Under the pieces are notes generated by a model, which saw nothing but the letters and a program-made list of their open reading frames with translations, searched no databases and was not told the origin of the DNA. DNA of 64,000 nucleotides from Paenibacillus timonensis (GTDB lineage Bacteria > Bacillota > Bacilli > Paenibacillales > Paenibacillaceae), in the NCBI RefSeq assembly GCF_009725205.1, contig NZ_WNZY01000018.1, positions 1 to 64,000 on the forward strand, read 5' to 3'. Below, one piece after another: positions 13,233-28,863 of the stretch. The number at the start of each line of letters is the position of its first letter. Position 1 is the stretch's first letter. Made by a program: the position numbers and the translations under genes.

Positions 13233-13236
13233 GCCG

Positions 13237-14356: not shown

Positions 14357-14492
14357 CTATGCCGAAAGGCCTAGTCACTCCTAAAAAATAGCCAAAAGGA
14401 TAGCAGGAATTATTTATTTTCATAGGGAATCCATTCAAGAATATAAAAATAATAGTAAATATGTAACGTCAAGGCGAAGGAGTTTGCGGTTC

Positions 14493-15962
14493 ATGAAAAT
14501 CTTCTATATTCTGATGTTTTTATCCCTTTGGTCTTTAGGTCTCGTTTTTTTGTTTCACCGCCGAAGAAGCCAACTTTGGATTGCTTTAACGCTGCTGCTC
14601 GGCGGGGCCGCCAGCTACGCCTTCGCGATGCATCTGACCATTATGCCGGTCGTTCATGGAGCCGAATGGCTGCCCGAAACGGTAAGTCGATGGCTCTATC
14701 TCACCACGGTGGTCGCTATGAACATTCATTTCTATCTCCTTCCCTTTACGTTCTTCATGGGCGGTTTATGGTTAAACGAGTCGATGGGGCTTCGGTTCAA
14801 GCAGGGGCTGTCGGTAATCGGCTTCGTTGGGGCGCTGGCCTTACTCCTTGCTCATTTGCGATTTGAACCCTGGAATACGTTTGAGGTCGAGCGATTTCGT
14901 TATTGGGACGGGATCTACGTGGTTCTGGGCTGCTATTTCTATTACCGCGCCTATGCCCGGGAAAAAGATGTGCAACTGCGGCGCGTCCGGAGAAGAATCC
15001 TGCTGTTTCCAATCATAATGATCTGGGCGTATACCAGCGATTATCTTGGCTTCGAATCATTAAAGCTGGGATGGTGGAGCCTTGAGCTGGAAAGCAACGG
15101 CATGTGGCATGGCAATGTGATCGTCATCTTAGGTGCCGTATCGCTCATTCTGTTCTACACGGTGCGTTACGGATTTCTGGGCATTAAACTGCGCATCGAA
15201 CGGGAACGTCTGGATTATTCCATTCGCACGCTGACGATGGGGGTATCGATTCTGAACCATACGATTAAGAACGAGATCCAGAAGATCGACTATTTGGCTG
15301 AAAAATGCAGTGTACTCCTCCAATCGGGACAGACCGGCAAAGCCGTCCATACGATCGAGCAGGTTCATGGGTTAACGCGTCATTTGCTACATATGGTGAA
15401 TCGAATCAAAGATAAAGCCGAGGATGTCGTCCTTGATGAAGGCGAATACGAAGTTGGCTCGTTGATGGATTCCGTGATCCAGTCGGCAGCAACGCTGGTG
15501 GAGAATCGTCCGGTATCCTTGTCCGCCGAATATGGAGCCGATGGCCGGCTGGTTTGCGATGCGGTTCATATCAGCGAAACGCTGTCCAACCTGATTCGCA
15601 ATGCCTTGGATGCCATGCCGTCCGGCGGGACGATCACCCTGCGTTCGGCCGCTTCGCGCCGAGATTTTCGGATCGAGGTCAGCGATACGGGGAACGGCAT
15701 TCCCCAGGAGTATATGTCCAAGATTTTCGAACCTTTCTTTACGACGAAAAAAAACGCCTTGAACTACGGTCTAGGTTTATCCTATTGCTCAAGCGTTCTC
15801 AGCAAGCATGGAGGCAAGTTAACCGTCTCGAGCGAACCTGGAAAGGGAACGACGTTCATCCTGCACTTTCCGGCGATTCGCTTTCGGCCGAGCCATCCTT
15901 CCCGCAGGCTGAAGGCAACCGGCAAGTTAAGGGCTTGGGCCGATCGGGCTAATCCATCTTAA
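14493..15962 (+). CDS. Membrane sensor histidine kinase beside the tail cluster
   Basis: The product has 489 residues from ATG 14493, with AAGGAG ten bases upstream; a TTG at 14484 is too close to that site. The N-terminal half has about seven membrane helices and little extracellular sequence, so it may sense a membrane or intramembrane signal. His256 in LNHTIKNEIQ is the likely phosphorylation site. The ATPase domain shows NLIRNALDAM, DTGNGIP and GLGLSYC. The final 14 bases overlap the end of the convergent response regulator gene, its probable partner. Transcription starts just after the galactan terminator. Confidence 0.85.
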   Translation: MKIFYILMFLSLWSLGLVFLFHRRRSQLWIALTLLLGGAASYAFAMHLTIMPVVHGAEWLPETVSRWLYLTTVVAMNIHFYLLPFTFFMGGLWLNESMGLRFKQGLSVIGFVGALALLLAHLRFEPWNTFEVERFRYWDGIYVVLGCYFYYRAYAREKDVQLRRVRRRILLFPIIMIWAYTSDYLGFESLKLGWWSLELESNGMWHGNVIVILGAVSLILFYTVRYGFLGIKLRIERERLDYSIRTLTMGVSILNHTIKNEIQKIDYLAEKCSVLLQSGQTGKAVHTIEQVHGLTRHLLHMVNRIKDKAEDVVLDEGEYEVGSLMDSVIQSAATLVENRPVSLSAEYGADGRLVCDAVHISETLSNLIRNALDAMPSGGTITLRSAASRRDFRIEVSDTGNGIPQEYMSKIFEPFFTTKKNALNYGLGLSYCSSVLSKHGGKLTVSSEPGKGTTFILHFPAIRFRPSHPSRRLKATGKLRAWADRANPS

Positions 15963-16536
15963 AGTGAGTCAGTTTATTCTTTATGCTGCGCAGCTGGGAC
16001 TTAATCGTATTGGTCGATTTATGCAATCGTTCGGAAATTTCCCGTTTACTAAGGCCGTTCTGGCGCAGGTCGAACACCTCGCGTTCCGTTGGCGATAACT
16101 CCATCAGCTGCATCTCGCTGCGCATAATCCCCGCGGCATCCGAATGGATGGAGGCGCGTCCGATCTGGGCTTCGCGAATCGCTTGCAGGATATCTTGATA
16201 ACTTGCCTTATTGATGTAATTAATGGCGCCGAGGCGAAACGATTTCATGATGACTTCCGCATCCGTGATGGAGGTCAACATAATGATTTTTACCGAATCC
16301 TGCAAGGGAAGCCGCAATACCCGCTCCGCCGCTTCGAGGCCGTCTAGCTGATTGCCCGTCAAATTGATGTCCATCAGCACGACGTCGATCTTCCGCCGAC
16401 CTGCGGCTTCAAGCGCTTCTTCCTTCGTGGCCGTCACGGCAACCACCTCTATATCTGGCTCATCGCTTAAATCCGCACTGATATGATCCCTCCAGAAGGG
16501 ATCGTCTTCCACCAGCATGACACGGATCGGCTCCAT
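15949..16536 (-). CDS. NarL/LuxR-type response regulator, candidate controller of the tail genes
   Basis: The protein has 195 residues. The receiver domain has VEDD at residues 9-12, phosphoacceptor Asp56 in VVLMDINLT, and INKAS. The C-terminal helix-turn-helix begins LSPTEREVFDLRQNGLSKRE near residue 145 and includes HKSTNTIKSQL. The ribosome site GAGGAGG lies just upstream. The gene is divergent from the tail cluster and convergent with the kinase, so kinase, regulator and tail genes form one block. An inverted repeat in the divergent promoter region is a likely binding site. Confidence 0.88.
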   Translation of the reverse strand: MEPIRVMLVEDDPFWRDHISADLSDEPDIEVVAVTATKEEALEAAGRRKIDVVLMDINLTGNQLDGLEAAERVLRLPLQDSVKIIMLTSITDAEVIMKSFRLGAINYINKASYQDILQAIREAQIGRASIHSDAAGIMRSEMQLMELSPTEREVFDLRQNGLSKREISERLHKSTNTIKSQLRSIKNKLTHFKMD

Positions 16537-16603: not shown

Positions 16604-16645
16604 AGGATGATTTATCTTCACCCCCAGGTGAAGAAATTTCATCCT
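16604..16645. promoter_or_regulatory. 19-base-arm inverted repeat in the divergent promoter region
   Basis: AGGATGATTTATCTTCACC (16604-16622) is repeated inverted as GGTGAAGAAATTTCATCCT (16627-16645); 16 of 19 positions pair, with a four-base centre. Its centre lies about 56 bases before the predicted start of tail transcription and just upstream of the regulator's own -35. This is the expected place for an activator site. Confidence 0.6.
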
Positions 16646-16646
16646 A

Positions 16647-16674
16647 TTCGGCGTGTCGAGGAACCCCCTATAAT
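16647..16674 (+). promoter_or_regulatory. Candidate activator-dependent promoter of the tail cluster
   Basis: TATAAT (16669-16674) is a perfect -10. The -35 position holds TTCGGC, a poor match, so an activator is probably needed. The preceding inverted repeat ends two bases upstream. Confidence 0.5.
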
Positions 16675-16791: not shown

Positions 16792-17247
16792 GTGCTATTG
16801 GCCGAGGAGGTTGGCGGTTTAACGGAGTTGATCACGAGAAGGTTCCCTGACTCTACGGTTCATTGGTTCCAAGAGCCTGCCGAACCTGTGGCCGGGGAAT
16901 TTGTAGTATTGCTGAAGCAGGAAGTCCGCAGGAGCGATTCGAGAAGCCATACGCTGCTCGAACGCCAATATGCGATCGGGTATTATGCGAGCACGGTGGA
17001 AACGGCGTTATATGAGATGGAGTCGCTCAGTCGATACGTGATGAACGAAAGTACGGATACAGACGAAGGAGCAAGTGCCGGGACGAAACCGATCCGGGTG
17101 GACTCATTTACGATAACCTCCGCCGAACCGCTGGAGAATGGCTTGCGGAAATGCCAGGGTACGCTGCTGGTTCAATCGCGTGAACCCGTTCGTTTCCGGT
17201 CGCAAGACAAAATCAAACATATGGAATTTCGCACGACAAACAACTGA
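16792..17247 (+). CDS. Tail terminator-like protein (DUF6838-like)
   Basis: The start is placed at GTG 16792 because AAGGGAGGG lies eight bases upstream; the frame stays open back to 16714 (GTG) and 16729 (ATG), but those have poor ribosome sites. This gives 151 residues. The pattern of a helix, then FPDSTVHWFQEPAEPVAGEFVVLL, then a long strand-rich tail fits the tail terminator/completion proteins that precede the sheath gene in PBSX-like clusters. Those cap the finished tube. The identification rests mainly on position and secondary structure. Confidence 0.6.
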   Translation: MLLAEEVGGLTELITRRFPDSTVHWFQEPAEPVAGEFVVLLKQEVRRSDSRSHTLLERQYAIGYYASTVETALYEMESLSRYVMNESTDTDEGASAGTKPIRVDSFTITSAEPLENGLRKCQGTLLVQSREPVRFRSQDKIKHMEFRTTNN

Positions 17248-17263
17248 AAGGTGGCATGAGGTC

Positions 17264-18322
17264 ATGGGTGGAACATGGGATACAACCAGCTTGCCGGTAC
17301 GGCCTGGCTTGTACATCAATTTCGTGGAGGCGGCCGCGGCGCAAATCAAAGGGGGCGCCCGGGGAACGGTGGCATTGCCGTTGTTCCAGTATGAGGGAGC
17401 TGGCGCAGGTCAATTTTTTACAGTGGAAAAAGAATCCGAAGCCGCCCAATGGTTCGGCGATGCGTTTGTGGAACCGATTCGCTTGACCCTCTTGGGAGGG
17501 GCGAAAGAGGTGCTCGTTTATACGGTGCCTGTACCGAGCGGCGGAGGGGATCCGGCCGCTGCCGATTTCACCGCGATTCGCGACGTATTTAGTACCCGGC
17601 ATTTTAACGTATTTGTTTTTCCAGGTGAAGTTCCTGCCAGTGAGCAGAAGGCGACGCTGAAATGGTGCGCGGACAGCCGCGAAGATGAAGGCAAACACTT
17701 CCTGACGGTATTCGGCGGAAAAGCCGAAGACGACCTGGATTCTGCGAAAGGCAACCAACGCAGCGTGGACCTGGCAGACGATTATGCCGTGAATTTAATC
17801 AGCGGCGTCAATATCGAAGGAACGGTATACAGTTCTGCGCGTTACGCCCCTTATATCGCCGGATTAATCGCCGGGACCGGAATCAACAAATCGATTACGT
17901 ATGCTCCGGTGTATGCAGGCGACGTGGCCAAACGGCTGCGCAATACGGAGATTCATGCCGCCTTGCAGAAAGGGTCGCTTGTCCTGGTTCATGACGGGGA
18001 GAAGGTCAAGGTGGAACAAGGCCTGGTCACGAGCCGCAAGAAGGTGCGCGCCATGCGGGCGCGTCAAGCGATCTCCACCGACATTACGAAGGCGGCCGCC
18101 GATGCTTATATCGGCAAGCTGGATAATAACGCCGATGGGCAAGCTGCGCTGATCTCGGCCGTGAAAGCTTATTTGGAACGGCTGGAGTTAAACAACGTGC
18201 TGACGGATATCGCGGTAACTCTGGATCCGGACCGGCAGTCGGAAGGCGACACCGTGTATTTGCTGATCGCCTTTACGGAGATCGACAGCATGGAGCGGAT
18301 TTTCCTGACGATCAAGGTATAG
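17264..18322 (+). CDS. xkdK: Contractile tail sheath protein, XkdK-like
   Basis: The product has 352 residues from ATG 17264 (AAAGGTGG nine bases upstream), with the typical short-sheath start WDTTSLPVRPGLYINFVEAA. It continues with the sheath core and the C-terminal domain, including SITYAPVYAGDVAKRL and ending MERIFLTIKV. Sheath subunits form the outer cylinder that contracts and drives the inner tube into a target. Its presence makes this a contractile, R-type structure and not a siphovirus-type tail. The upstream terminator-like gene ends 16 bases before it, and the tube gene follows. Confidence 0.92.
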   Translation: MGGTWDTTSLPVRPGLYINFVEAAAAQIKGGARGTVALPLFQYEGAGAGQFFTVEKESEAAQWFGDAFVEPIRLTLLGGAKEVLVYTVPVPSGGGDPAAADFTAIRDVFSTRHFNVFVFPGEVPASEQKATLKWCADSREDEGKHFLTVFGGKAEDDLDSAKGNQRSVDLADDYAVNLISGVNIEGTVYSSARYAPYIAGLIAGTGINKSITYAPVYAGDVAKRLRNTEIHAALQKGSLVLVHDGEKVKVEQGLVTSRKKVRAMRARQAISTDITKAAADAYIGKLDNNADGQAALISAVKAYLERLELNNVLTDIAVTLDPDRQSEGDTVYLLIAFTEIDSMERIFLTIKV

Positions 18323-18359
18323 GTAGAAGAGGAATTCAATCTCATGAGGAGGGGTATCA

Positions 18360-18794
18360 GTGCTGGATTCAACCCGAGTGATCAATGGAACTTTCGGATA
18401 TGTGTATTACGATGGCCGCTGGTTGACCAACGTTAAATCGGCCGAAGCCAACGTGGAAATTACCAAGGAGGAAATCAAACGGTCCGGTACGCGCTGGACG
18501 GCGCATAAAGTGACTGGACTCAGCGGATCCGGGACGATTACCGGATATAAAGTAACCTCCGAATTCGTCGAGCTCATCGGACAAATCGCCGATGACAAAC
18601 AAGGCGCATTTACGACGGAACTGATCTTGAAGCTGGAGGATCCGGAGTCCTACGGGGCTTACCGGGTTCGGTTGAAAGGGGTTACCTTCGACAAGATCCC
18701 GTTGATGCACTTTGAAGTCGGCTCCATCGTGGAGGAAGAGCTGCCTTTTAATTTTACCGGCTACGAATTGTTGGATAAACTCGTCGCGGAGTAA
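18360..18794 (+). CDS. xkdM: Tail tube protein, XkdM-like
   Basis: The start is GTG 18360, after GAGGAGGGG; 144 residues. The sequence INGTFGYVYYDGRWL and the later strand pattern fit the XkdM/FI family, which polymerises into the rigid inner tube. Stoichiometric tube and sheath genes are adjacent, as in PBSX. A 108-base gap without ORF follows before xkdN. Confidence 0.9.
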   Translation: MLDSTRVINGTFGYVYYDGRWLTNVKSAEANVEITKEEIKRSGTRWTAHKVTGLSGSGTITGYKVTSEFVELIGQIADDKQGAFTTELILKLEDPESYGAYRVRLKGVTFDKIPLMHFEVGSIVEEELPFNFTGYELLDKLVAE

Positions 18795-18902
18795 TGGGCG
18801 AGGCAGTGGGCGGGTACCCGGCGAATGCGAACCAGACCCCGGGTTCTCCGCTTTCCACCTCCGCCGCGAGGCATACACCATTTTTTAAGGAGATGAAGAT
18901 CG

Positions 18903-19301
18903 ATGGCGATTACGGATAACCGACAAAACAACGTGCTTCAAGCTTTGCTTGGGGCGGACAGTAAACCGAAAAAGGACGTTCCGATAAAACGGCTGGGCGT
19001 GGATTTTCAAATTCAAGCGCTGGACGGCAAAACGATTCACAGAATTCAGGAGCAATGCACTCACTTTACCGGAAAAGGATCCAAGCGGGAAAAAGTGCTC
19101 GACGATGAACAGTTCGGCGCCTTAGTCATCCAGAAAGCGTGCCTGATCCCGGATTGGTCCGCCAAGGAGCTGGTTGAGAAGTACGGGACGCCAACCGAAG
19201 CGATCCTCGGGTTGCTGCTGGCCGGCGAGATCGCCAAGCTGTCCGCAGAAATTTTGGAAATCAGCGGCTTCGACAGCGATGAAGATGAAATAAAAAACTA
19301 A
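18903..19301 (+). CDS. xkdN: Tail assembly chaperone, short form (XkdN-like)
   Basis: The zero-frame product has 132 residues and follows GGAGATGAAGATCG. It is the analogue of lambda gpG and PBSX XkdN, which binds the tape measure and recruits tube subunits during assembly. The last codons are ATA AAA AAC TAA, so a perfect A-AAA-AAC slippery heptamer sits directly before the stop. The acidic tail (DSDEDE) comes just before this site. Most ribosomes should stop here. Confidence 0.9.
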   Translation: MAITDNRQNNVLQALLGADSKPKKDVPIKRLGVDFQIQALDGKTIHRIQEQCTHFTGKGSKREKVLDDEQFGALVIQKACLIPDWSAKELVEKYGTPTEAILGLLLAGEIAKLSAEILEISGFDSDEDEIKN

Positions 19302-19489
19302 TTAAAGCGGGCGGAGAAGCCTTCTTGCTGCATCTGATCTTTCAACGCCATCACCTGCCGCCGGATGAGGTGTACAACAAGGATGAGAACGTGAAACGGT
19401 TTATGTACGCCTCGATGATGCTGCAATTGGAAGAGGAGGAGAAGGCGCGTAAGGAGCAGGAGAGAGCCGCCCGCAGGCAGAAGCCGTAA
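18903..19489 (+). CDS. xkdN: Tail assembly chaperone, long form made by -1 frameshifting
   Basis: A -1 slip at 19292-19298 joins the 132-residue zero frame to 63 more codons (19298-19486, stop TAA 19487-19489), giving 195 residues. The extension begins LIKAGGEAFLLHLIFQRHHL and ends in a highly charged helix. It has no ribosome site or start of its own, and it fills the gap to the tape measure gene exactly as lambda gpGT and PBSX-type chaperones do. In those systems the T part binds tube protein. Confidence 0.85.
19292..19298 (+). promoter_or_regulatory. Programmed -1 ribosomal frameshift site A-AAA-AAC
   Basis: The heptamer is in the correct phase (A19292, AAA 19293-19295, AAC 19296-19298) and the zero-frame stop TAA follows at once. 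GC-rich sequence a few bases downstream (GCGGGCGG near 19306, GCCGCC near 19364) could form a stimulatory stem. Confidence 0.85.
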
Positions 19490-19514
19490 AGGCTGAACAG
19501 GGGAGGCGAGGAGG

Positions 19515-21509
19515 TTGAGCTCATCGGCAGGCGGGAGCATTCCCGACTTTTCGAAAGCAACGTTAAACGACTTGAATAAGCTCAACAAAATGATGAGCCA
19601 GCTGCAAAGAACGACGTCCCAGCTTGAGCAGGTCAGCGGGTTTGCCCGCATCGGGAAAGAGTTGGAAGCGACGCAGAGCACCAGTGCTAAGGTGGCTAAA
19701 CAATTCGTTTCGCTGCAGCTGGCAACGGGCGCTACCGCTGGGGTCATGCGGAAGAAGCTGGCTGCGATGAAGCCGGCCGTCGACAACTTTATGCTGGATT
19801 TGTCTTGGGCGGTCAAGGCCAAGGCGGAAAGTGTATCCAAGGGGGCGAAGGCGCTTGGCAAGCCGTTTGCCGGGGTGTGGCAGAAGGTTCAGGACAAACG
19901 GGCTGCGGCGGCCAAGAAGAAGGCGGACGATGCTTTGGCTGCGCAGCTCGGGTTCCCGGTAGGGCCGAAAGCTCCACCGAAGCTAAAAGGGATGAAGCGG
20001 CTGCAAAATATCGCAGGTAACACCGCGATTCAGAACCTGCCGGAAGAGCGGAAGAAAATGCTCTCGTCTGCGGCCAGCACGGCAGGAGGTCTTCTTGGCC
20101 AACTGCAGGATCGGTCGCTTGCGGCAGCCAAGGAATTCAGCACGGCGGTTGGCACGCTGCGGGCGGCATCGATGGCCGGTCCTGGCCAAATGAAAGGTAT
20201 GGTCGCGTCTTTGCGAGAGCTAGGCGGGCAGGTGCCGCAAAATCTGAACGAAATCGCCAGTGTGATGGGAACGCTGAGCGGCAAAGCCAAACTTACGGGG
20301 ACAACGTTGACCGCAATGTCCAAAACAGTGCTGGACGCCTCACGGTTAAGCGGAGCAAACAGCGCTGAAGCAGCCAACGCGGCTGCTTCGGTCATGAGCG
20401 TTTGGGGGAAGAAAGCCGGCGAAGGGACTTTGATGATGGACCAGTTTTTCGCTGCGAGCCGCGTCAGCGGTGCGGGAATGGGCGATTTGCTCAAAAATAT
20501 GGGCTCGCTCGGCCTACCTTTGCAGCAGATGGGACTTAGTTTCGAGCAGTCGATGGCCTTGATGGCCAAATGGCAGTCCTCCGGATTAACCCCGATTCAG
20601 GATGCGCTCCGGAAGGATGTAAAGGGCGAAGGCCTTGCCGCCATTACCGCCAAGATCAAAGCGGCAGCAACCGAGTCGGAGGCTGCGGCTGTGGCTGCCC
20701 AATACTTTGGTCACAGCGTCAGCGGCGATCTGGTGGCCGCCCTGAAGAATGGGCAGGTTGAATTCGGCGGGGTGGTCGCTGCGATGAGTACAGCGGGCAA
20801 CGCGATTCGGAACCAGGCTGGCGAAGTCCAAACCTTCGGCGATAAATGGGATATGCTTCAGAACCGAATTACGGTCGCTTTGGCGCCGTTAGGGGAAGCG
20901 ATGTTGCCCCTCGGTGAAGCCCTGGCTTCCATCGTTGAAGTATTAACTCGAGACGGGGATATCGTGCTGGCTACGATCGGCTCCATAGCCGCCCTGCTGC
21001 TTGGCGTTTTTGCGCCGGCCTTATGGGCTTCCGCGGTGGCAGGATGGGCGGCCGTTGCGCCATTTCTTCCGATTATCGCCGCGGTCCTGCTGGTAGGGGT
21101 GGCTGTGGCGGGCTTGGCGTACGCGTTCAAGTATCACATGGATTGGATCGTCGAGCAGGTTAACAAAGTGAAGGATAAAATCAGCTCCTTCCTCAGCGTG
21201 TTCGATATTTTCAGCGGTGACGAGAATGGGGGAGCCGGCGGAAATACCGCGACATCGAACGGCGGTCCGCCGACGAGCCGTTATCACGGCATGTCCTATG
21301 TGCCTTACGACGGAATGATGGCCCGGCTGCACAAGGGTGAACGTATTATGACAGCCTCCGAGAACCGGGAATTCTCAAACGGGGCGAGTGGGGGAGCTGC
21401 CATATCGATCACGGGCAATACGTTTCATGTCCGCCAGGAATCCGATATCGATGCGATCGCTAGAGCGCTGGCCCGCGAAATCAAAGCGGCGGGAGGATTG
21501 ATGGCGTAA
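19515..21509 (+). CDS. xkdO: Tail tape measure protein, XkdO-like, short
   Basis: The start is TTG 19515 with GGGAGG eight bases before it; 664 residues, about half of PBSX XkdO. The N-terminal 150 residues are Lys/Ala-rich and helical. The middle has the phage-tail tape-measure pattern (GTLSGKAKLTGTTL; SGLGLPLQQMG-like region near 340). Two hydrophobic helices lie near 480-545, and a Gly-rich C-terminus carries MMARLHKGERIMTASENREF. Tape measures set tail length and occupy the tube lumen. At about 0.15 nm per residue this predicts a tail near 100 nm. No peptidoglycan hydrolase domain is visible. Confidence 0.88.
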   Translation: MSSSAGGSIPDFSKATLNDLNKLNKMMSQLQRTTSQLEQVSGFARIGKELEATQSTSAKVAKQFVSLQLATGATAGVMRKKLAAMKPAVDNFMLDLSWAVKAKAESVSKGAKALGKPFAGVWQKVQDKRAAAAKKKADDALAAQLGFPVGPKAPPKLKGMKRLQNIAGNTAIQNLPEERKKMLSSAASTAGGLLGQLQDRSLAAAKEFSTAVGTLRAASMAGPGQMKGMVASLRELGGQVPQNLNEIASVMGTLSGKAKLTGTTLTAMSKTVLDASRLSGANSAEAANAAASVMSVWGKKAGEGTLMMDQFFAASRVSGAGMGDLLKNMGSLGLPLQQMGLSFEQSMALMAKWQSSGLTPIQDALRKDVKGEGLAAITAKIKAAATESEAAAVAAQYFGHSVSGDLVAALKNGQVEFGGVVAAMSTAGNAIRNQAGEVQTFGDKWDMLQNRITVALAPLGEAMLPLGEALASIVEVLTRDGDIVLATIGSIAALLLGVFAPALWASAVAGWAAVAPFLPIIAAVLLVGVAVAGLAYAFKYHMDWIVEQVNKVKDKISSFLSVFDIFSGDENGGAGGNTATSNGGPPTSRYHGMSYVPYDGMMARLHKGERIMTASENREFSNGASGGAAISITGNTFHVRQESDIDAIARALAREIKAAGGLMA

Positions 21510-22168
21510 TGGCATCCCTGGAATTTTGGCTGAAGACGATCGATGAGAAGGAATGGCTATGGCTGCCGGTGAATCCGGAGCAAGTGTCGGTCAAAAGTTC
21601 GCACGGCTACGAGGATATCCAGGTTACGCAGCTGGGAGAATACACGGTCATCGGGGAAGCAGTCCTGAAGGAATATTCGTTTGCTTCCTTTTTTCCGCGC
21701 GACTACCACCCTGGATATTGCGAGTATGAATCCTTGCCTGATCCTTGGGCCACCGTGGAGAAGATCGAGGCCTGGATGAGAAGCCGGCGTCCGGTCCGCC
21801 TCGACATTACGGGAACCAAGCTCAAAGGCTTGGTGACCATCCGCTCCTTCCAGTACAGCGAACGCGCGGGGAATCCAGGCGACGTTTTTTTCGAACTGGA
21901 GTTGAAGGAGTACAAGGAAGTGCAGTTCCGTCAGGTGGAGACGTCCGGGTCAGGGAAAGCGATGGTGATTACGGGAGAATACCGCCCCGACACGAAGACG
22001 CCCCCGGCCTCCTATGTTGTCATCCCTGGGGATACGTTGTGGAAAATCGCGCAGCGGACGCTTGGCAACGGCGACCGGTGGAGGGAAGTTTACGCAGCGA
22101 ACATAGCCGTGATCGGTAAAGACCCGAACCGGATCGTTCCCGGCCAGAAGCTGGTGATTCCCTCATGA
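21509..22168 (+). CDS. xkdP: LysM tail hub protein, XkdP-like
   Basis: The protein has 219 residues. The N-terminal domain (about 1-150, FWLKTIDEKEWLWLPVNPEQV) matches the XkdP/gp53-like family that links tube end and baseplate hub. A C-terminal LysM domain (about 168-219) starts YVVIPGDTLWKIAQRTLG and ends PGQKLVIPS; LysM binds peptidoglycan. Start and upstream stop overlap as TAATG, and the next gene overlaps by four bases, so the tail genes are tightly coupled. Confidence 0.88.
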   Translation: MASLEFWLKTIDEKEWLWLPVNPEQVSVKSSHGYEDIQVTQLGEYTVIGEAVLKEYSFASFFPRDYHPGYCEYESLPDPWATVEKIEAWMRSRRPVRLDITGTKLKGLVTIRSFQYSERAGNPGDVFFELELKEYKEVQFRQVETSGSGKAMVITGEYRPDTKTPPASYVVIPGDTLWKIAQRTLGNGDRWREVYAANIAVIGKDPNRIVPGQKLVIPS

Positions 22169-23175
22169 GCTGGAGTGTGACCTACAAGGATCAGGAGCAA
22201 GACGTTTTTTTGGATCCCATCGTCAAATCCGTGAATTGGTCCGGCGATATCAAACAGGCCGCTCGCAAGCTGGTGGTTGAATTGTCCAATACCGGAGATC
22301 TTCGCGAACTGTACATGAAGCTCCAGAAAGGCGGGGAACTGCGCTTTCTCCTGGACGATCACGAGCTGTTTCGCGGCGTCTTGTTTGCCGATGAGATCGA
22401 CTCCAAAGGCCAGATGTCCCTAACGGCTTACGACGAAAACATCTACCTGACCAAGAGCAAGGATACGAAAATCTTTCGTGGTCAAACGGCCTCTGCGGTG
22501 GTGAAGCGACTGTGCAACGAGTTCTCCATTCCGATGGGGGAAGTTCAGGATACGGGTTACGTCATCCCGAAGCTGGTCTTGCGCGACAAGACCCTGTTCG
22601 AAATGATGGTGACGGCCTTAACCGAGTCCGAAAAGCAAAACGGGCAGCGATTCTGGATTACGTCGAGGGAAGGGAAGCTGCAGGTATTGGCACGCAAGGA
22701 ACAAAAGGGGAAGTGGGTGCTGGAAAACGGAGTTAATCTGCTGGGAGCCAGTTACTCGCAATCCATCGAAGAAACGCGCACCCAAATCAAGGTCGTCGGT
22801 GAGGACGGGAAAAAGAAGGAGCTGTCTGCCAGTGCCAAGGATTCGGCACTGATCCGGAAGTTTGGCATCATGCAGCATTTGGAGAAACCGGATCAGGCGA
22901 TGACCTCTTCGCAGATGGAGCAGCGCGCCAAGCAACTGCTTAAGGATTTGGCGACCATCGAGGATCAAGCCCGCATCGAATGTTTGGGGATCGCCGACGT
23001 TGTTTCCGGCTCGTGCGTGTACGTCAAGGAATCCGTAACGGGCATTCTCGGGGGTTATTACGTTTCGGCCGACGAACATCACTTCGAGCATGGCAAACAC
23101 ACGATGTCTTTAACCTTGTCGGCGACAGACGACATTCCCAAATTGGAATACAAGGAAGAGAAGGGGGCCGGTTGA
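22165..23175 (+). CDS. xkdQ: Baseplate hub protein, XkdQ-like
   Basis: The product has 336 residues and is similar to the PBSX XkdQ/phage D-protein group, whose members form the trimeric hub below the tube (gp27-like fold). Supporting features are the start WSVTYKDQEQDVFLDPIVKSV, the middle TASAVVKRLCNEFSIP and the strand-rich C-terminal half ending HTMSLTLSATDDIP. ATGA and TGATG overlaps on both sides show translational coupling. Confidence 0.85.
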   Translation: MSWSVTYKDQEQDVFLDPIVKSVNWSGDIKQAARKLVVELSNTGDLRELYMKLQKGGELRFLLDDHELFRGVLFADEIDSKGQMSLTAYDENIYLTKSKDTKIFRGQTASAVVKRLCNEFSIPMGEVQDTGYVIPKLVLRDKTLFEMMVTALTESEKQNGQRFWITSREGKLQVLARKEQKGKWVLENGVNLLGASYSQSIEETRTQIKVVGEDGKKKELSASAKDSALIRKFGIMQHLEKPDQAMTSSQMEQRAKQLLKDLATIEDQARIECLGIADVVSGSCVYVKESVTGILGGYYVSADEHHFEHGKHTMSLTLSATDDIPKLEYKEEKGAG

Positions 23176-23627
23176 TGGAACGCATCGAAGGCTCGGGAGC
23201 GAGCCAGCTTGTGCAATTAATCCGAGCCATCGGCTACAACTCGGACATTACCTTGGAATTGGCGACGGTGACGGCGCCGCCGCCTGAGCTGAAGATTAAG
23301 GTGGATCATATGAACGTGGAGCTGGAGAAGGACGATCTGATCGTGGCTCAGTCGTTAACGAAGTATAAGCGGAAGGTGAACGTGAAGAGTGAGGGAAAGA
23401 CGGAGGTGTCTTCCACATCCATCACTCAGGCATCCGTTTTGGTCGTATCAAGCGGGAGTGGTGAGATCACAAAATTCACTTCCTTTGGCATGTCCTCCGC
23501 AAATTTGACGGTACAAGAAGCCGAACTCGAATTCACGGATGAACTGAAGAAGGATGATCGTGTGATTGTGGCCGGCATTCATCAAGGGCAAACCTATCTT
23601 ATTTTGGATCGGGCGGTGATGTACTGA
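23175..23627 (+). CDS. xkdR: DUF2577-like baseplate protein, XkdR-like
   Basis: The start is ATG 23175, overlapping the previous stop; an upstream extension of the frame is not supported. The 150 residues are strand-rich (VDHMNVELEKDDLIVAQSL, then RVIVAGIHQGQTYLILDR), as expected for the OB-like DUF2577 proteins at this position in PBSX clusters. They are thought to take part in the spike/hub region. It is longer than the roughly 100-residue PBSX XkdR. Confidence 0.75.
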   Translation: MERIEGSGASQLVQLIRAIGYNSDITLELATVTAPPPELKIKVDHMNVELEKDDLIVAQSLTKYKRKVNVKSEGKTEVSSTSITQASVLVVSSGSGEITKFTSFGMSSANLTVQEAELEFTDELKKDDRVIVAGIHQGQTYLILDRAVMY

Positions 23628-24040
23628 TGGCGTTGTCTCCGCTGCAAAGAAGGGAGGAGCGTTATGAGGAAGCTAAGCCGACAACGCTCCCTTCCCGGAC
23701 CTACGCTCTCGATTTTGAAACGGGCCAGGTGATCGAACGGATCATTGATGGAACGGAAGCCGTTCGCCAGTTTATTCGCAAGGCGATTCAAACGGCGCGT
23801 TACCGATATTTGATCTACAACAGCCAGTACGGCTGCGAAATCGAAAGCCTGCTGGGCCAGGACATTTCCCAGCAGCTGCTTAAAAGCGAAATCACGAGGG
23901 TCATCACCGAAGCGCTGCGGGAGGATGATCGCGTCGCCTCAGTAGACCAATTTCAAATCGTTAGGGAGAACGATAAGCTGTTCGTGACCTTTACGGTTCA
24001 TACAACACAAGGGGCCGTTCGGCAGGAGGTGAGGATATAA
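23627..24040 (+). CDS. xkdS: Baseplate wedge protein, gp25-like (DUF2634, XkdS-like)
   Basis: The protein has 137 residues and belongs to the XkdS/DUF2634 family. Its core IRKAIQTARYRYLIYNSQYGCEIESL is the conserved stretch shared with gp25-like sheath-initiator proteins. It nucleates sheath assembly on the baseplate. The start overlaps the preceding stop by one base. Confidence 0.88.
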   Translation: MALSPLQRREERYEEAKPTTLPSRTYALDFETGQVIERIIDGTEAVRQFIRKAIQTARYRYLIYNSQYGCEIESLLGQDISQQLLKSEITRVITEALREDDRVASVDQFQIVRENDKLFVTFTVHTTQGAVRQEVRI

Positions 24041-24042
24041 AC

Positions 24043-25104
24043 GTGTTTGAACATCAGACGAAAGAAGCGATTTTGCAGCGGATGCGGGATGCTTCGCCGA
24101 AGGAAATCGATACCCGGCAGGGATCCATCACCTTCGATTTGCTGTCCCCTGCGGCCATTGAATTGGCGCATGCCTATATCGAGCTGGACCAGGTATTGAA
24201 ATTCGGCTTTGTCGGCCCGGATCAGCCTTCCGAGTATTTGGATCTCCGTGCCGGAGAGCTTGGATTAACCCGGCGTCCGAGTGTGAAGGCGGAAGGGAAG
24301 CTGGTGTTTACCGGTGATGATGATACGATCATCCCGGAAGGAACCGCCGTATCGACGGATGAAGAGGAAGCGGTCGTTTTTGTCACGGCCGAACCTGGGA
24401 TCATTCAGCAAAAGAAGGCGACGGTAAAGGCCGTGGCTGCCGTCGGCGGGAAACGGGGCAACGTGGATAAGGACCGAATCAAGCTGGTGCTGGGAGATTT
24501 GTCCGGGATCGTAACGGTGACCAACCCGGAAGAATTCGTAAACGGTGCGGAGACGGAATCGGATGAATCGCTGCTGGTTCGTTATTTCGACCGGGTACGC
24601 CGGCCTGCCACCAGCGGCAATGCTTGGCATTACCGCCAATGGGCGCTGGAAGTACGCGGGGTAGGCGACGTTAAGGTGTTCCCTGTCTGGAACGGCGGCG
24701 GAACCGTGAAGTTGTGCGTGCTGTCGGAGGATAAAATCGCCCCTAATCCGACCATCGTGCAGGATGTAAGGGAGGCCGTGGATGCCCGGCGGCCGGTAGG
24801 AGCTTCAGTCACCGTAGTTCCAGCCCAAGAAGTGAAAATCAATGTGACGGCGAATGTGACGTTGGCCTCAGGGGCGGTATTGGCGAACGTCAAGGCGTTG
24901 TTCAGCGAGAAATTAAAAGCGTTTCTGGCCGACTTGGCCTTCCAAAGCCCAGTGGTCCCTTATAACCGGATATTTGGCCTGCTTCTCGATATTGAAGCTG
25001 TTACGGACTTCAAGAACCTAACCATTAACGGGGCGGCCAATCAGAACTTGAATATCGGCGATGAGCAGGTTGCCGTGGCCGGGACGGTGAATTTTGTTGT
25101 CTAG
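24043..25104 (+). CDS. xkdT: Baseplate J-like protein, XkdT-like
   Basis: The start is GTG 24043, after GGAGGTGAGG; 353 residues. Baseplate J-like features are STDEEEAVVFVT, then AVGGKRGNV, then SDESLLVRYFDRVRRPATSGN (near 190) and a final strand-rich domain. It forms the wedges around the hub. The stop lies inside the start region of the next gene. Confidence 0.9.
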   Translation: MFEHQTKEAILQRMRDASPKEIDTRQGSITFDLLSPAAIELAHAYIELDQVLKFGFVGPDQPSEYLDLRAGELGLTRRPSVKAEGKLVFTGDDDTIIPEGTAVSTDEEEAVVFVTAEPGIIQQKKATVKAVAAVGGKRGNVDKDRIKLVLGDLSGIVTVTNPEEFVNGAETESDESLLVRYFDRVRRPATSGNAWHYRQWALEVRGVGDVKVFPVWNGGGTVKLCVLSEDKIAPNPTIVQDVREAVDARRPVGASVTVVPAQEVKINVTANVTLASGAVLANVKALFSEKLKAFLADLAFQSPVVPYNRIFGLLLDIEAVTDFKNLTINGAANQNLNIGDEQVAVAGTVNFVV

Positions 25105-25717
25105 TCCAAGCAAAGCCGTCATGGCACGAAATATCCAAAATGAGATGATGGATGATTTACCTGATTACTATATGCCGAAGGAAGCCGGCGGAAAGTTGGG
25201 CATCGTCGGTAATTTGATCACGCGCGAAGCTCGAGAGTTGATTGATCTCAATACCGAGATTCGGGAGGTGTTGGATCAGTTTTTTATCGATCGGGCGACT
25301 TGGGGGTTATCCGCTTGGGAAGCCGTTTGCGGCATTCCAAGCAACGAAGACAAACCTCTGGAGCAGCGGCGTTCGGTGATCAAGTCGAAGATTCGGGGAG
25401 CTGGAACCGTAACGCTGGCCGTGATCAAAGAGGTGGCGGATTCGTTTGAGAACGGGGAAATCCAGGTACAAGAAAATTTCAACCATTACGAAGTGGTAAT
25501 CACGTTTATCGGCAAACGCGGGGTTCCGCCAAATTTGCCGGATATGCAAAACGCGTTGCGTGAGATCGTTCCAGCCCATCTCCAATTGGTGTTCCAATTT
25601 ACCTATTTACGCTGGGAGGAGCTGGATTCCGCTGACTTAACCTGGGAGAAGCTCGATGCGCTTGATATGTCTTGGGACGAGTTGGAAGTATGGAAGCCGG
25701 GCGCAAAACGATCATGA
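25094..25717 (+). CDS. xkdU: DUF2313/YmfQ-like baseplate protein, XkdU-like
   Basis: The protein has up to 207 residues. The start is uncertain (TTG 25094, TTG 25097 or ATG 25121), because the gene overlaps xkdT. The helical N-terminal part and WGLSAWEAVCGIP match XkdU proteins, which attach fibres to wedges. The last 35 residues carry three short repeats around a WEEL/WEKL/WDEL core, common at the ends of such proteins. Confidence 0.82.
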   Translation: MLSSPSKAVMARNIQNEMMDDLPDYYMPKEAGGKLGIVGNLITREARELIDLNTEIREVLDQFFIDRATWGLSAWEAVCGIPSNEDKPLEQRRSVIKSKIRGAGTVTLAVIKEVADSFENGEIQVQENFNHYEVVITFIGKRGVPPNLPDMQNALREIVPAHLQLVFQFTYLRWEELDSADLTWEKLDALDMSWDELEVWKPGAKRS

Positions 25718-25742
25718 GGTTACCTAAGAAAGGAGAGTACTT

Positions 25743-26789
25743 ATGCCAAAACTGCCTAGCGGTTTAACTACATTTGAGCCGTCCGATACGGTCAGGAGAA
25801 CGGCTCAGAACGAAAATATCGAAGCGATCGATGCTTTATTTCGTGCGACGGGAGGCCATCGACATACCGGGAAATCCGGCGATGCACCGCAAATCGGCAC
25901 CGAAGGGATCGCAGTCGGGGCGGTAACGTCGGACCGGATCGCTTTATCCGCCATAACCGGGGATCGGGTCGCGCGGGAAACGCTATGCCGCAGGCATCTA
26001 AAATCCGGGCGACTCAGCGGCAACGTAGCGAAATACAAAAAGGTGACTGTGACCGCGGGTTCGGTCAGCGGCAGTCCGACAACGCCATATTATCAATACG
26101 GAGATCATTATTGGGCTTTATTCTCGGCTTATTCAACCTTTCCGCAATCGATGACCGTGGAGCTTGGGGCCGAATTTTCGGAAATCGAAGGAATCTGTTT
26201 CGACAATAATTGGGGCACTCCTCCCAAAAGCTTCTATGTCGAAATCAGCAGCGACAAAACGACATGGAAAAGAGCCTATGCCTATACCCGGCCTGCTGCC
26301 GAAGCATTGCCTAGATACCATCCATTTGATCAGTTGTTCGGCGGCTCGTATGTGCGGCTAACGGTTACGGAACCGGATGAAACATCAGGGAACTCGTTTG
26401 TTTCGGGATTTGGCGTGTTAAGCCGAGGGGCTCAGGAAAGCAGTCCGGATTTCCGGATCTATCAAGGATTATTGCAATTTCATAATGGATCGGAGTGGAA
26501 AGGCGTGGGGATCAAAAATGTTCAGCGAGGTTCGGCAAGCATTGCTTATTTTTATCCGAACGGAACGGGATCCACAGTGAGAGAGGTGACGATCTCCGCG
26601 GTAAACCCGCAGAAGACGTTCGTTAACATCACCACATCCGGGTTGTCTCATTGGTTCCAAACTTCTCCTATGATGGACGGTTCGGTTTGCGCAAGGTTGA
26701 TCGACAACAACAAATTACGATTTAACTTCTATGAGGGATTTTACGAGGCCTATGCGGAGATTTCCTGGGAGGTGATTGAGTTTGCCTAA
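25743..26789 (+). CDS. Tail fibre/receptor-binding protein with discoidin-like domain
   Basis: The product has 348 residues. The first 25 residues resemble fibre attachment regions (LPSGLTTFEPSDTVRRTAQNENI). GHRHTGKSGDAPQI holds the His-x-His type metal motif common in tail fibres. Residues about 95-230 look like an F5/8 type C (discoidin) carbohydrate-binding domain: TVELGAEFSEIEGICFDNN, FYVEISSDKTTWKRAY and YVRLTVTEPDE. The last 100 residues are strand-rich and lack a clear match. It is the best candidate for the part that chooses the target. Confidence 0.75.
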   Translation: MPKLPSGLTTFEPSDTVRRTAQNENIEAIDALFRATGGHRHTGKSGDAPQIGTEGIAVGAVTSDRIALSAITGDRVARETLCRRHLKSGRLSGNVAKYKKVTVTAGSVSGSPTTPYYQYGDHYWALFSAYSTFPQSMTVELGAEFSEIEGICFDNNWGTPPKSFYVEISSDKTTWKRAYAYTRPAAEALPRYHPFDQLFGGSYVRLTVTEPDETSGNSFVSGFGVLSRGAQESSPDFRIYQGLLQFHNGSEWKGVGIKNVQRGSASIAYFYPNGTGSTVREVTISAVNPQKTFVNITTSGLSHWFQTSPMMDGSVCARLIDNNKLRFNFYEGFYEAYAEISWEVIEFA

Positions 26790-27222
26790 TTACTATGCGC
26801 AGATTGATGAAGACGGCCGGGTGTACGCGGTGAGCGAATTGGCCGGGGAAGTCGAAGCGCCGAACCTGATCTCGGTCAGTGAGCAGCAATACCGGAGTGG
26901 AAACCTGCTGTTTACGCGGTACGCCGAAGGCAGCTTCACGGGGAATTTTGCCCGCATGGAGGCGGATAAGACGCAAATTCAGGCGAACGGCGAAGATACG
27001 GTAACGGTGAAAATCACCGTCGTCGATTGGCAGGGACAGGTGCAGAAGGAGTTTAACGAGGAGGTGGCCGTTGAACTAAACGGGGTACGACAATCCGTGA
27101 AGGCGGCGAAAGGCGTTGCGGAGGTCACGATCAGCAGCGATGAACCCGGGGCTTATGCCTTAAAAACAGTGGGTCTCGACCGCAACGGTGACTTAAAGGT
27201 GGTGGTCGTAGATGGCAACTAA
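26782..27222 (+). CDS. Small fibre-associated protein, XkdW-like position
   Basis: TTG 26782 is preferred as start because GGGAGGTGA ends five bases upstream; TTG 26776 would overlap it. The 146 residues have an N-terminal part containing YAQIDEDGRVYAVSELAG, a family feature of XkdW-like proteins. A C-terminal Ig-like/invasin-type strand domain follows (ANGEDTVTVKITVVDWQGQ, later DEPGAYALKTVG). It overlaps the fibre gene by eight bases and may serve as a fibre chaperone or tip. Confidence 0.7.
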   Translation: MPNYYAQIDEDGRVYAVSELAGEVEAPNLISVSEQQYRSGNLLFTRYAEGSFTGNFARMEADKTQIQANGEDTVTVKITVVDWQGQVQKEFNEEVAVELNGVRQSVKAAKGVAEVTISSDEPGAYALKTVGLDRNGDLKVVVVDGN

Positions 27223-27427
27223 GAAGCCGGCTGCCAGGGCGCATTTTCATATTCCAGCCGATCCGCTACGCGTGAAGGTGGAGGAGCTCCAACATAAATC
27301 CACTTATCGCAAGCAACAAAACCTCAAATCAACCGAGATCACCCTGGACTCTTTGTACGAAATGCTAAACGATATCCTGGAACAGCAGGCGCTGCTACTA
27401 ACGGCAATCCAGCGGTCGCAAAAGTAA
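27212..27427 (+). CDS. Small coiled-coil protein closing the tail operon
   Basis: The protein has 71 residues, overlaps the previous gene by 11 bases and follows GGTGGTGG. A Lys/Ala-rich start is followed by a predicted helix with heptad-like hydrophobics (ITLDSLYEMLNDILEQQALL). I recognise no family. It occupies the XkdX position but is longer than that protein. A terminator comes directly after it. No holin or amidase gene follows, unlike PBSX. Confidence 0.65.
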   Translation: MATKKPAARAHFHIPADPLRVKVEELQHKSTYRKQQNLKSTEITLDSLYEMLNDILEQQALLLTAIQRSQK

Positions 27428-27433
27428 AATGAA

Positions 27434-27468
27434 GCCATCTGCCCCTGCGGGGAGCAGATGGCTTTTTC
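27434..27468 (+). terminator. Terminator of the tail cluster
   Basis: GCCATCTGCC pairs with GCAGATGGC around a GC-rich loop and runs into five T. Confidence 0.9.
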
Positions 27469-27491
27469 TGGATTCACAAGATGAACTAGAA

Positions 27492-27529
27492 ATGAAAACG
27501 TTGACAATCTCCTAAGTTGGGATTATGGT
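27492..27529 (+). promoter_or_regulatory. cre box overlapping a sigma-A promoter of the first GH43 gene
   Basis: ATGAAAACGTTGACA (27492-27506) matches the cre consensus WTGNAANCGNWNNCW at all fixed positions. Its last six bases are the -35 TTGACA (27501-27506). A 17-base spacer leads to the -10 TATGGT (27524-27529). Confidence 0.75.
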
Positions 27530-27549
27530 GATGAAAACAAAATAAAATG

Positions 27550-27565
27550 TTTGTAATAAAGCAAA
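27550..27565 (+). promoter_or_regulatory. Candidate operator of the arabinan/galactoside island
   Basis: TTTGTAATAAAGCAAA; its TTGTAATAAA core starts 27 bases after the first base of the -10. Similar boxes sit at 28722, 34087 and 35268. Confidence 0.55.
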
Positions 27566-27610: not shown

Positions 27611-28576
27611 ATGGAGCAAAAAACATTTTCAAACCCGATTTTGTCAAACGGTGCCGACCCCTGGATCGTTCGGGATCCCGATGGAAGTTACTATATGTCG
27701 GTCACTTTAGGAGACCGCATCGCCCTATGGCACAGCCAAACGCTGAGCGGACTCGGTCAGGTTGAAGCGAAGACGGTATGGGTTCCTGAGCCCAACGGAC
27801 CTTTTTCCCGCAACCTATGGGCGCCGGAGCTGCACCGCATCGATGGACGCTGGTACATCTACTATACAGCCAACGACGGCGGGGGGGACGACACAAGACG
27901 CATCTGCGTGCTTGAGCTTACGGGCGATGATCCGATAAACGGTGAGTGGTGTTTTAAAGGCGCAGTGAATACGGAAGTTCCGGGCCTCGACGGAACCGTG
28001 CTCCAACATCAGGGGGAACTGTATTTCTTTTATTCTGGATACGGCCGCTTCCCTGATTACGGTTCGGCGATCTACGCTGCCCGGATGACCAATCCGTGGA
28101 CCTTAACCGGTCCCAATGTATTGATCACGGCTCCAACCGCGTCGTGGGAGAAGCAAGGCGGAATGGCGATTAACGAAGGGCCTGTCTTTTTGCGGCGCAA
28201 CGGGTGGATTTTTCTCGTCTTTTCGGCGAGTGCGACGTGGTCGGACGATTACTGCCTTGGGATGACGAGGATTCCGGAATCCGCAGACCTGCTTGACGCA
28301 AAGTCTTGGATCAAAGAGGAGGGTCCCGTCTTCGCTAAGCATCCATCCGCCGGAGTCTACGCGCCGGGACACAACAGTTTTACCGTATCCCCGGACGGAT
28401 CCGAGGATTGGATTGTTTACCACGCTTATGATTATTCCGATACGAATCAACAACGTTCGGCGGGTGCTCCCCGCAGTACAAGAATTCAAAGCTTTGGTTG
28501 GAAATCGAACGGGATGCCCGATTTCGGGATACCAACCGGCGTTGGCATCCTCATTTCCCGGCCTGCTGGCGAATGA
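27611..28576 (+). CDS. GH43 arabinosidase/arabinanase-like enzyme, cytoplasmic
   Basis: The protein has 321 residues, a single five-bladed propeller domain and no signal peptide. The catalytic base is Asp16 (GADPWIV), the pKa modulator Asp127 (GLDGTV) and the acid Glu189 (NEGPVF), the usual GH43 set. This group acts on alpha-L-arabinofuranosides or xylosides; the exact bond cannot be told. It sits alone behind its own catabolite-controlled promoter, next to an importer. It may therefore act on oligosaccharides brought into the cell. Confidence 0.88.
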   Translation: MEQKTFSNPILSNGADPWIVRDPDGSYYMSVTLGDRIALWHSQTLSGLGQVEAKTVWVPEPNGPFSRNLWAPELHRIDGRWYIYYTANDGGGDDTRRICVLELTGDDPINGEWCFKGAVNTEVPGLDGTVLQHQGELYFFYSGYGRFPDYGSAIYAARMTNPWTLTGPNVLITAPTASWEKQGGMAINEGPVFLRRNGWIFLVFSASATWSDDYCLGMTRIPESADLLDAKSWIKEEGPVFAKHPSAGVYAPGHNSFTVSPDGSEDWIVYHAYDYSDTNQQRSAGAPRSTRIQSFGWKSNGMPDFGIPTGVGILISRPAGE

Positions 28577-28666
28577 AACACATGGATATCGTTACAACTT
28601 TTTTGGAACTAATCTTATGTATTGAGATATGAGATGATTTCTTTAAATAAATCGATAACTATCCGT

Positions 28667-28704
28667 ATGAAAGCGTTGACATCGGATCGTGCGGGGATTA
28701 TAAT
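28667..28704 (+). promoter_or_regulatory. cre box overlapping a consensus sigma-A promoter of the importer operon
   Basis: ATGAAAGCGTTGACA (28667-28681) fits the cre consensus and contains TTGACA (28676-28681). After a 17-base spacer comes a perfect TATAAT (28699-28704). Confidence 0.85.
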
Positions 28705-28721
28705 CAACGCAAAGATACAAA

Positions 28722-28743
28722 ATTATTGTAATAAAACAATAAT
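28722..28743 (+). promoter_or_regulatory. Palindromic candidate operator
   Basis: ATTATTGT (28722-28729) and ACAATAAT (28736-28743) are perfect inverse arms around six bases. The core TTGTAATAAAACAA starts 27 bases after the first base of the -10, the same offset as at 27551. Confidence 0.6.
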
Positions 28744-28863
28744 ATTACTTCATGGTGGTCGATGTGTTTGTGGAGGGGTTTGAGTTCATGCGAAAGGGGC
28801 GGTGAGAAGAAGCAGTGGTCGCAGGGGTTCGTTGAGTTTGAGATTAATAAATGGGAGGATCCT

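Follow-up and report, generated by a model that had tools for sequence, protein, structure and literature searches.

A headless contractile tail cassette beside a two-component pair in Paenibacillus timonensis: a candidate tailocin without a linked lysis cassette

The usual description of R-type tailocins is of SOS-induced particles set free by lysis genes of their own, and because of this mode of release their production amounts to suicide. How would a contractile tail be switched on, and how would it leave the cell, if no lysis genes stand beside it? This question is raised by a tail operon of Paenibacillus timonensis, located in a window of 64,000 nucleotides (assembly GCF_009725205.1, contig NZ_WNZY01000018.1, positions 1–64,000) that starts with the first base of contig 9 in a 5.12 Mb genome of 81 contigs. 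An initial annotation of the window had proposed that the tail is a domesticated R-type particle with no lysis genes in or next to its operon. Our results support this proposal and lead us, with moderate confidence, to interpret the locus as encoding a domesticated tailocin-like particle that is triggered by a signal and has no lysis cassette linked to it. The 13-kb cassette would, on balance, be a myophage tail module that runs from terminator to fibre, contains no head genes and is placed under two-component control. The comparison of loci shows its gene content and order, its conserved operator and −10 element, purifying selection, fibre variation and block exchange.

According to Pfam and PHROGs, positions 16792–27427 hold a full contractile tail operon with its genes in phage order (Table 1). 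The contractile tail run closed by a terminator, as first described, is borne out by these scans and by the hairpin behind the last gene. The first gene of the operon had no family match in the Pfam and PHROGs scans. Yet, the Foldseek neighbours of its AlphaFold model (mean predicted local distance difference test, pLDDT, 81; predicted template modelling score, pTM, 0.71) are tail terminators and collars, including the diffocin collar 8v3t_L (E 2.3e-5), the monocin cap 9j1j_A, the R2 pyocin collar 6u5f_A and lambda gpU. The sheath gene most likely starts at 17264 rather than at 17138, the start of the listed open reading frame. The top-scoring PDB sequences for the sheath are longer phage sheaths. 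The diffocin of Clostridioides difficile resembles the cassette in its short sheath (354 amino acids in CD1363 versus 352 here), in its tube CD1364, which is the best PDB match of our tube, in its collar fold and in the lack of a head.

Directly upstream of the stop codon of the chaperone gene lies the motif AAAAAAC (19292–19298), and the −1 reading frame stays open as far as 19489. The same slippery site occurs in 9 relatives with printed context, and it probably points to a −1 frameshift product. The model of the fibre is less certain (pLDDT 70, pTM 0.47, first 90 residues unreliable), and its resemblance to CBM32/discoidin folds was found by Foldseek. The Ig-like protein is probably part of the fibre, because the two are fused in the other P. 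timonensis genome that we compared.

Table 1. Predicted features of the cassette, with positions in the window, and of the wall-enzyme gene at two related loci
Feature	Position	Strand	Basis
Sensor histidine kinase, at least 4 hydrophobic N-terminal segments, HATPase_c	14484–15962	+	PF02518, hydropathy
LuxR/NarL-type response regulator	15949–16536	-	PF00072, PF00196
Nested inverted-repeat operator between regulator and tail	16604–16645		Conserved in alignment of 9 loci
TATAAT, putative −10 of tail operon	16669–16674	+	24 nt 3' of operator
Tail terminator/collar protein	16792–17247	+	AlphaFold model and Foldseek; 5' of sheath in head-bearing relatives
Tail sheath, 352 amino acids, short form	17264–18322	+	PF04984, PF17482; PDB matches including diffocin CD1363 (354 amino acids)
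Tail tube	18360–18794	+	PF09393; best PDB match diffocin CD1364
Tail assembly chaperone, XkdN-type	18903–19301	+	PF08890
Tape measure, 664 amino acids	19515–21509	+	PF10145, TIGR01760
XkdP-like LysM tail protein	21509–22168	+	PF01476, phrog_380
Baseplate hub, YqbQ/XkdQ-like	22165–23175	+	PF24032
DUF2577 baseplate protein	23175–23627	+	PF10844, phrog_579
Sheath initiator, gp25-like	23627–24040	+	PF10934
Baseplate J-like wedge protein	24043–25104	+	PF04865
gp48-like baseplate protein	25094–25717	+	PF10076
Tail fibre with CBM32/discoidin-like glycan-binding domain	25743–26789	+	PF00754 (F5/8C), alignment, model and Foldseek
Ig-like protein	26776–27222	+	PF18565, sub-threshold PF02369
Last gene, 71 amino acids, coiled-coil-like C-terminus	27212–27427	+	No family
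Terminator hairpin, 14 pairs	27432–27464		T run follows on + strand (scanner listed - strand)
Peptidoglycan-binding/C39-peptidase gene	L089:17035–17892; L090:17032–17892		

None of the operon proteins matched a capsid, portal, terminase, integrase, repressor, holin or AAA+ family in Pfam or PHROGs, and head, packaging and integration genes were found neither in the operon nor beside it, which agrees with the first description. The locus has a complete contractile tail and a terminator/collar cap, and it lacks capsid and packaging genes, as expected of an R-type tailocin. A linked lysis cassette, which is typical of this class though not strictly defining, is absent from the window. Only the LysM protein was scored as an endolysin, by PHROGs (phrog_380). 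We rejected it as a hidden lysis gene, as Pfam recognises LysM and a sub-threshold Dit-like match in it and no catalytic domain. Genome-wide searches covered three holin families and one capsid family, with positive controls in other genomes. The P. timonensis genome has one sheath gene, no match to the holins PF05105, PF10960 and PF04531, and no match to the HK97 capsid family PF05065.

An AAA+ ATPase is expected in the clusters of standard extracellular contractile injection systems (eCIS). Because no AAA+ domain was matched among the operon proteins, a standard eCIS of the Afp, PVC or AlgoCIS type is not supported, as had been argued initially. Type VI secretion systems are recognised by a membrane complex and ClpV; neither turned up in the general Pfam scans of the unit, which did not include a dedicated search for them.

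For comparison we assembled 16 cassettes: the one in the window, nine from 40 genomes of the genus (J identity 65–95%), two from a scan of named genomes (L045 of Gorillibacterium timonense and L047 of P. vini), and four from tube and regulator searches of family genomes (L089, L090, L095 and L096, the last being the P. arenilitoris locus that is also listed as L052). L089 and L090 belong to another genus and are the two most divergent cassettes. As L025 ends within the tape measure gene, upstream sequence is available for 15. Among 394 family genomes, 13 had a tube at ≥83% identity, 23 had any tube match at E ≤ 1e-50 and 45 had the regulator at E ≤ 1e-45. Tube matches at 58–61% identity, except the G017 prophage, and the IMG/VR loci L097–L113 were left out of the comparison. 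Two proteins scanned from the class-3 locus L037 gave no PHROGs match. The 71-residue last gene of the operon matched no family in our scans and is not present in the Fontibacillus phaseoli prophage L031; it has a clear homologue in 14 of the 16 cassettes and a weak one in L089/L090. Among the loci compared, it is confined to these cassettes.

SOS-type or phage-repressor control, typical of R-type tailocins though not strictly defining, was not found at the locus, and LexA-like boxes occur in the window at chance level only. Instead, a two-component pair precedes the tail, with the regulator gene convergent to the kinase gene and divergent from the tail operon. The bounds initially given, 16792–27427, are correct for the tail operon. 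The unit as a whole extends left to 14484, and its kinase, regulator and operator had been overlooked, as had the block exchange and the cassette-free sites described below. The nested repeat between the regulator and the tail looks like an operator common to both. It is followed by a putative −10 element, for which no −35 consensus was reported, and a promoter scan listed no promoter-like site here.

Of the 15 cassettes that include upstream sequence, 13 have the pair linked to the tail in this arrangement. In all 13, the right half of the operator, an 18-mer, is matched at 16–18 of 18 positions, with TATAAT 23–24 nt beyond the operator. The best of 200 shuffles reached 13 or 14, a comparison weakened by the choice of the 18-mer after these same loci had been viewed, by scoring that was not blind and by shuffles that keep base composition only. 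A more independent check came from 18 regulator orthologs of other genera, 16 of which do not lie beside a tail within the stretches read. At 10 of these 16 loci (L077–L082 and L085–L088) the same element is matched at 16–18 of 18 positions, and because of its presence there the operator seems to be the real footprint of the regulator. The target-side half was not found at L083, L084 and the more distant L091–L094. A strict regular expression had missed the non-tail loci, which have a different spacer; a relaxed view and scoring recovered them.

Judging from these loci, the kinase–regulator pair belongs to a wider regulator family for which the tail is one of several neighbours. Seven proteins scanned near non-tail regulators are a cytochrome P450, two GH44/CBM3 proteins, two SLH-anchored proteins, a Big_7 protein and a protein with a copper amine oxidase N-terminal domain, although some of them are not encoded by the first gene after the operator and one SLH-anchored protein is from L084, which lacks the target-side half. 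In other Paenibacillaceae, the same two-component family and operator adjoin cytochrome P450, GH44/CBM3 and Big_7 genes.

Does any relative carry the missing lysis function next to its tail? The flank scans covered 84 of 91 flanking frames plus two controls from L031, and left out seven frames (one of L022, three of L089 and three of L090). They show the 25 commonest of 76 and of 97 families, and could hide single matches; therefore, the genes directly downstream were scanned singly. In all 16 cassettes we could identify what follows the last tail gene. The next gene encodes a GH43 protein in the window, L022, L023 and L027, a fatty acid desaturase in L025 and L047, a glyoxalase in L028 and L095, and a class A penicillin-binding protein in L052/L096. 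A MarR protein, an FG-GAP/SLH protein, a PfkB protein, an SNF2 helicase and an XRE protein occur once each, the last two on the opposite strand. Fourteen of the 16 cassettes have no lysis-type neighbour downstream, and no capsid family was found beside the cassettes. The positive controls gave the expected result, with holin-like, endolysin and holin genes after the fibre genes of L041 and an endolysin in L035. L040 and L041 are two different contractile tail loci in tandem (G031:C10:3006000–3042059), with their baseplate J genes ~13 kb apart and a single lysis cassette, which closes the second locus.

The initial expectation that related genomes would lack tightly linked lysis genes holds for these 14 cassettes and is qualified by L089 and L090. 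There, the next gene encodes a protein of 285 amino acids with peptidoglycan-binding and C39-like peptidase domains, 79–81% identical between the two loci. PHROGs scores it as an endolysin, via the binding domain, and 10 of the 12 matches listed are C39-type relatives in phage records, at 27–40% identity. No holin was recognised at either locus. The gene could encode a wall enzyme, a residual lysin or an effector, and is an endolysin-like candidate in one branch.

This gene is also an argument for an ordinary R-type tailocin whose lysis system lies elsewhere in the genome, as autolysins or an unlinked holin and lysin, and is perhaps partly linked in some relatives. It overlaps the last tail gene by ATGA, as seen in L089 where its start meets the preceding stop, and lysis genes follow the fibre both in head-bearing relatives and in other tail loci of the genus such as L041 and L035. 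However, tblastn did not find the C39 gene in the other 14 cassette loci searched, and the P. timonensis genome gave no match to the three holin families. An unlinked lysis gene under the same operator was also sought and rejected. The 29-mer operator occurs once in the genome at ≤3 mismatches, and the 18-base element at ≤2 mismatches was found at five places, two of them within this operator, against three for the reversed control. We regard an ordinary tailocin released by lysis genes elsewhere as rather unlikely.

Alternatively, the particle might stay with its producer, as an unreleased machine that, in times of stress, targets the membrane or works at the surface of the cell that made it. 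The 14 cassettes without a linked lysis gene fit this explanation. So does the membrane sensor, whose relatives adjoin exported GH44/CBM3, SLH-anchored and Big_7 proteins. There is also a precedent in contractile systems of Streptomyces, described in PMC10066040 as cytoplasmic, unreleased and tied to cell death under stress. This likeness to another Gram-positive contractile system is one of description, and the Streptomyces systems belong to a different lineage. Moreover, Pfam recognised no membrane anchor or effector gene in the operon, and the fibre varies in the manner of a receptor-binding protein aimed at other cells: its first ~85 residues are conserved in the alignment whereas the middle is variable. 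Such variability, together with the CBM32-like domain, is in keeping with targeting. A producer-bound machine is a doubtful explanation. A related possibility, to which we give little weight, is a phage tail refitted as a sensor-triggered device without a release programme that acts within or at the surface of the producer or of dying siblings, and is not a lysis-released bacteriocin. In that case, a two-component family whose members elsewhere adjoin exported, glycan-binding and S-layer-anchored proteins would have come to control a contractile machine whose fibre is CBM32-like.

The tail genes are evidently under purifying selection. In comparisons with P. mellifer and P. rubinfantis, at synonymous divergence (dS) of 0.19–1.0, the ratio of nonsynonymous to synonymous divergence (dN/dS) was 0–0.14 in the 11 genes from terminator to gp48 (e.g., tube 0.015 and 0; sheath 0.057 and 0.037) and 0.12–0.20 in the fibre, Ig-like and last genes (fibre 0.198 and 0.175). 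A decaying prophage remnant, suggested by the missing head and lysis genes and by two related genomes without a cassette at this site, is rejected as highly improbable in view of the intact frames, the low dN/dS and an operator and spacing kept across genera. Decay in sister species, which the initial annotation had named as a check, was not seen.

The other P. timonensis genome has a cassette at the same site, with ~72% DNA identity in the block against ~87% in the flanks. Identity shifts within 13452–14113 on the left and roughly at 27100–27550 on the right. Synonymous divergence is ~2 or saturated in most of the block (chaperone 0.76, last gene 0.88), versus 0.51–0.65 in the GH43 and GH42 genes. 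The block from kinase to tail has evidently been exchanged as a unit between conserved flanks in P. timonensis. In two related genomes, G019 and G003, the homologous parts of GH42 and GH43 are separated by ~0.9 kb, and both the cassette and GH53 are absent. The homology of these genomes with the window breaks off at 13227 and picks up again at 27490 and 27521. These cassette-free sites may reflect loss or a site that was never filled. A GH43 homologue also lies beyond the cassette in F. phaseoli (77%, ~15 kb) and P. faecis (74%, ~12 kb), and hence the chromosomal contexts may represent one rearranged neighbourhood rather than independent insertions.

The neighbours scanned were GH42, GH53, kinase and regulator on the left and GH43 and a solute-binding protein on the right. 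The cassette sits within a galactan/arabinan-type sugar gene cluster, at 11160–14277 (GH42, GH53) and 27611–30606 (GH43, solute-binding protein). GH53 is truncated in the compared P. timonensis and missing in P. rubinfantis.

The likely source of such a tail module is evident from head-bearing relatives. Sporosarcina phage Lietuvens, Brevibacillus phage MRSA107 and prophage L031 have the same tail order, with sheath identities of 54, 63 and 62%, respectively. In Lietuvens, terminase, portal and capsid genes precede the tail, and holin and endolysin genes follow it. L031 encodes head proteins, both minor and major, together with an M15-type endolysin, and MRSA107 has portal and head proteins and a peptidase scored as endolysin-like. 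The Xkd-type gene set and its order are shared with PBSX-like tail bacteriocins of Bacillus and Brevibacillus, and a Brevibacillus locus is described with a BhlA holin, an amidase and mitomycin C induction (PMC9406221). Diffocins are described as SOS-induced, lysis-released products of a 25-gene cluster (PMC6088184), unlike the Paenibacillus cassette, which has a two-component system and no lysis gene in the window. R-type tailocins of solvent-producing clostridia are likewise domesticated structural cassettes. PMC10538166 attributes to virtually all of them a lysis module, and to their regulatory modules 20–27 genes with an integrase or resolvase and 'two component regulators' among the possible functions. 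Some eCIS loci, according to PMC10598620, are completely without a lysis cassette and conserved regulatory genes. Our literature search by title and abstract opening found no tailocin under a two-component system among the matches listed. Some precedent exists for each feature alone; what the literature searched did not yield is their fixed combination under a shared operator, with exchange as a block.

If the cassette indeed encodes a signal-triggered tailocin-like particle, the membrane kinase would sense an outside or envelope cue and phosphorylate the regulator, which would bind the nested repeat and activate both its own gene and the tail operon. The resulting contractile tails, capped, headless and ~100 nm long as estimated from the 664 residues of the tape measure, would then assemble in the cytoplasm. 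Particles could exit upon cell death by a route outside the cassette, such as autolysis, mother-cell lysis or attack by another phage, and would kill bacteria whose surface glycans match the fibre.

Several points weigh against this interpretation, in addition to the choice of the operator 18-mer discussed above. L095 and L096 have no kinase–regulator pair, and the best regulator match in the genome that holds L052 is 37%. Upstream of the tail in L095, an AAA/LuxR-type regulator (L095:5443–7461) stands in place of the pair. Support for co-inheritance of kinase and tail is weak, as the correlation of their protein distances (r 0.84–0.92 over 13 cassettes) drops to 0.39–0.51 in a subset of nine. 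The translationally overlapping C39-peptidase gene of L089 and L090 may be an endolysin, and the apparent genome-wide absence of head and holin genes applies to three holin families and one capsid family.

If a membrane sensor indeed controls this conserved tail, which has no linked lysis cassette, the locus departs from both traits by which R-type tailocins are usually described. The question of release becomes testable in a culturable genus. The operator offers a handle, as a regulator in its active form should be able to turn on the particle even when the DNA is undamaged. Together, the block swap and the cassette-free sites provide a natural comparison of carriers with non-carriers.

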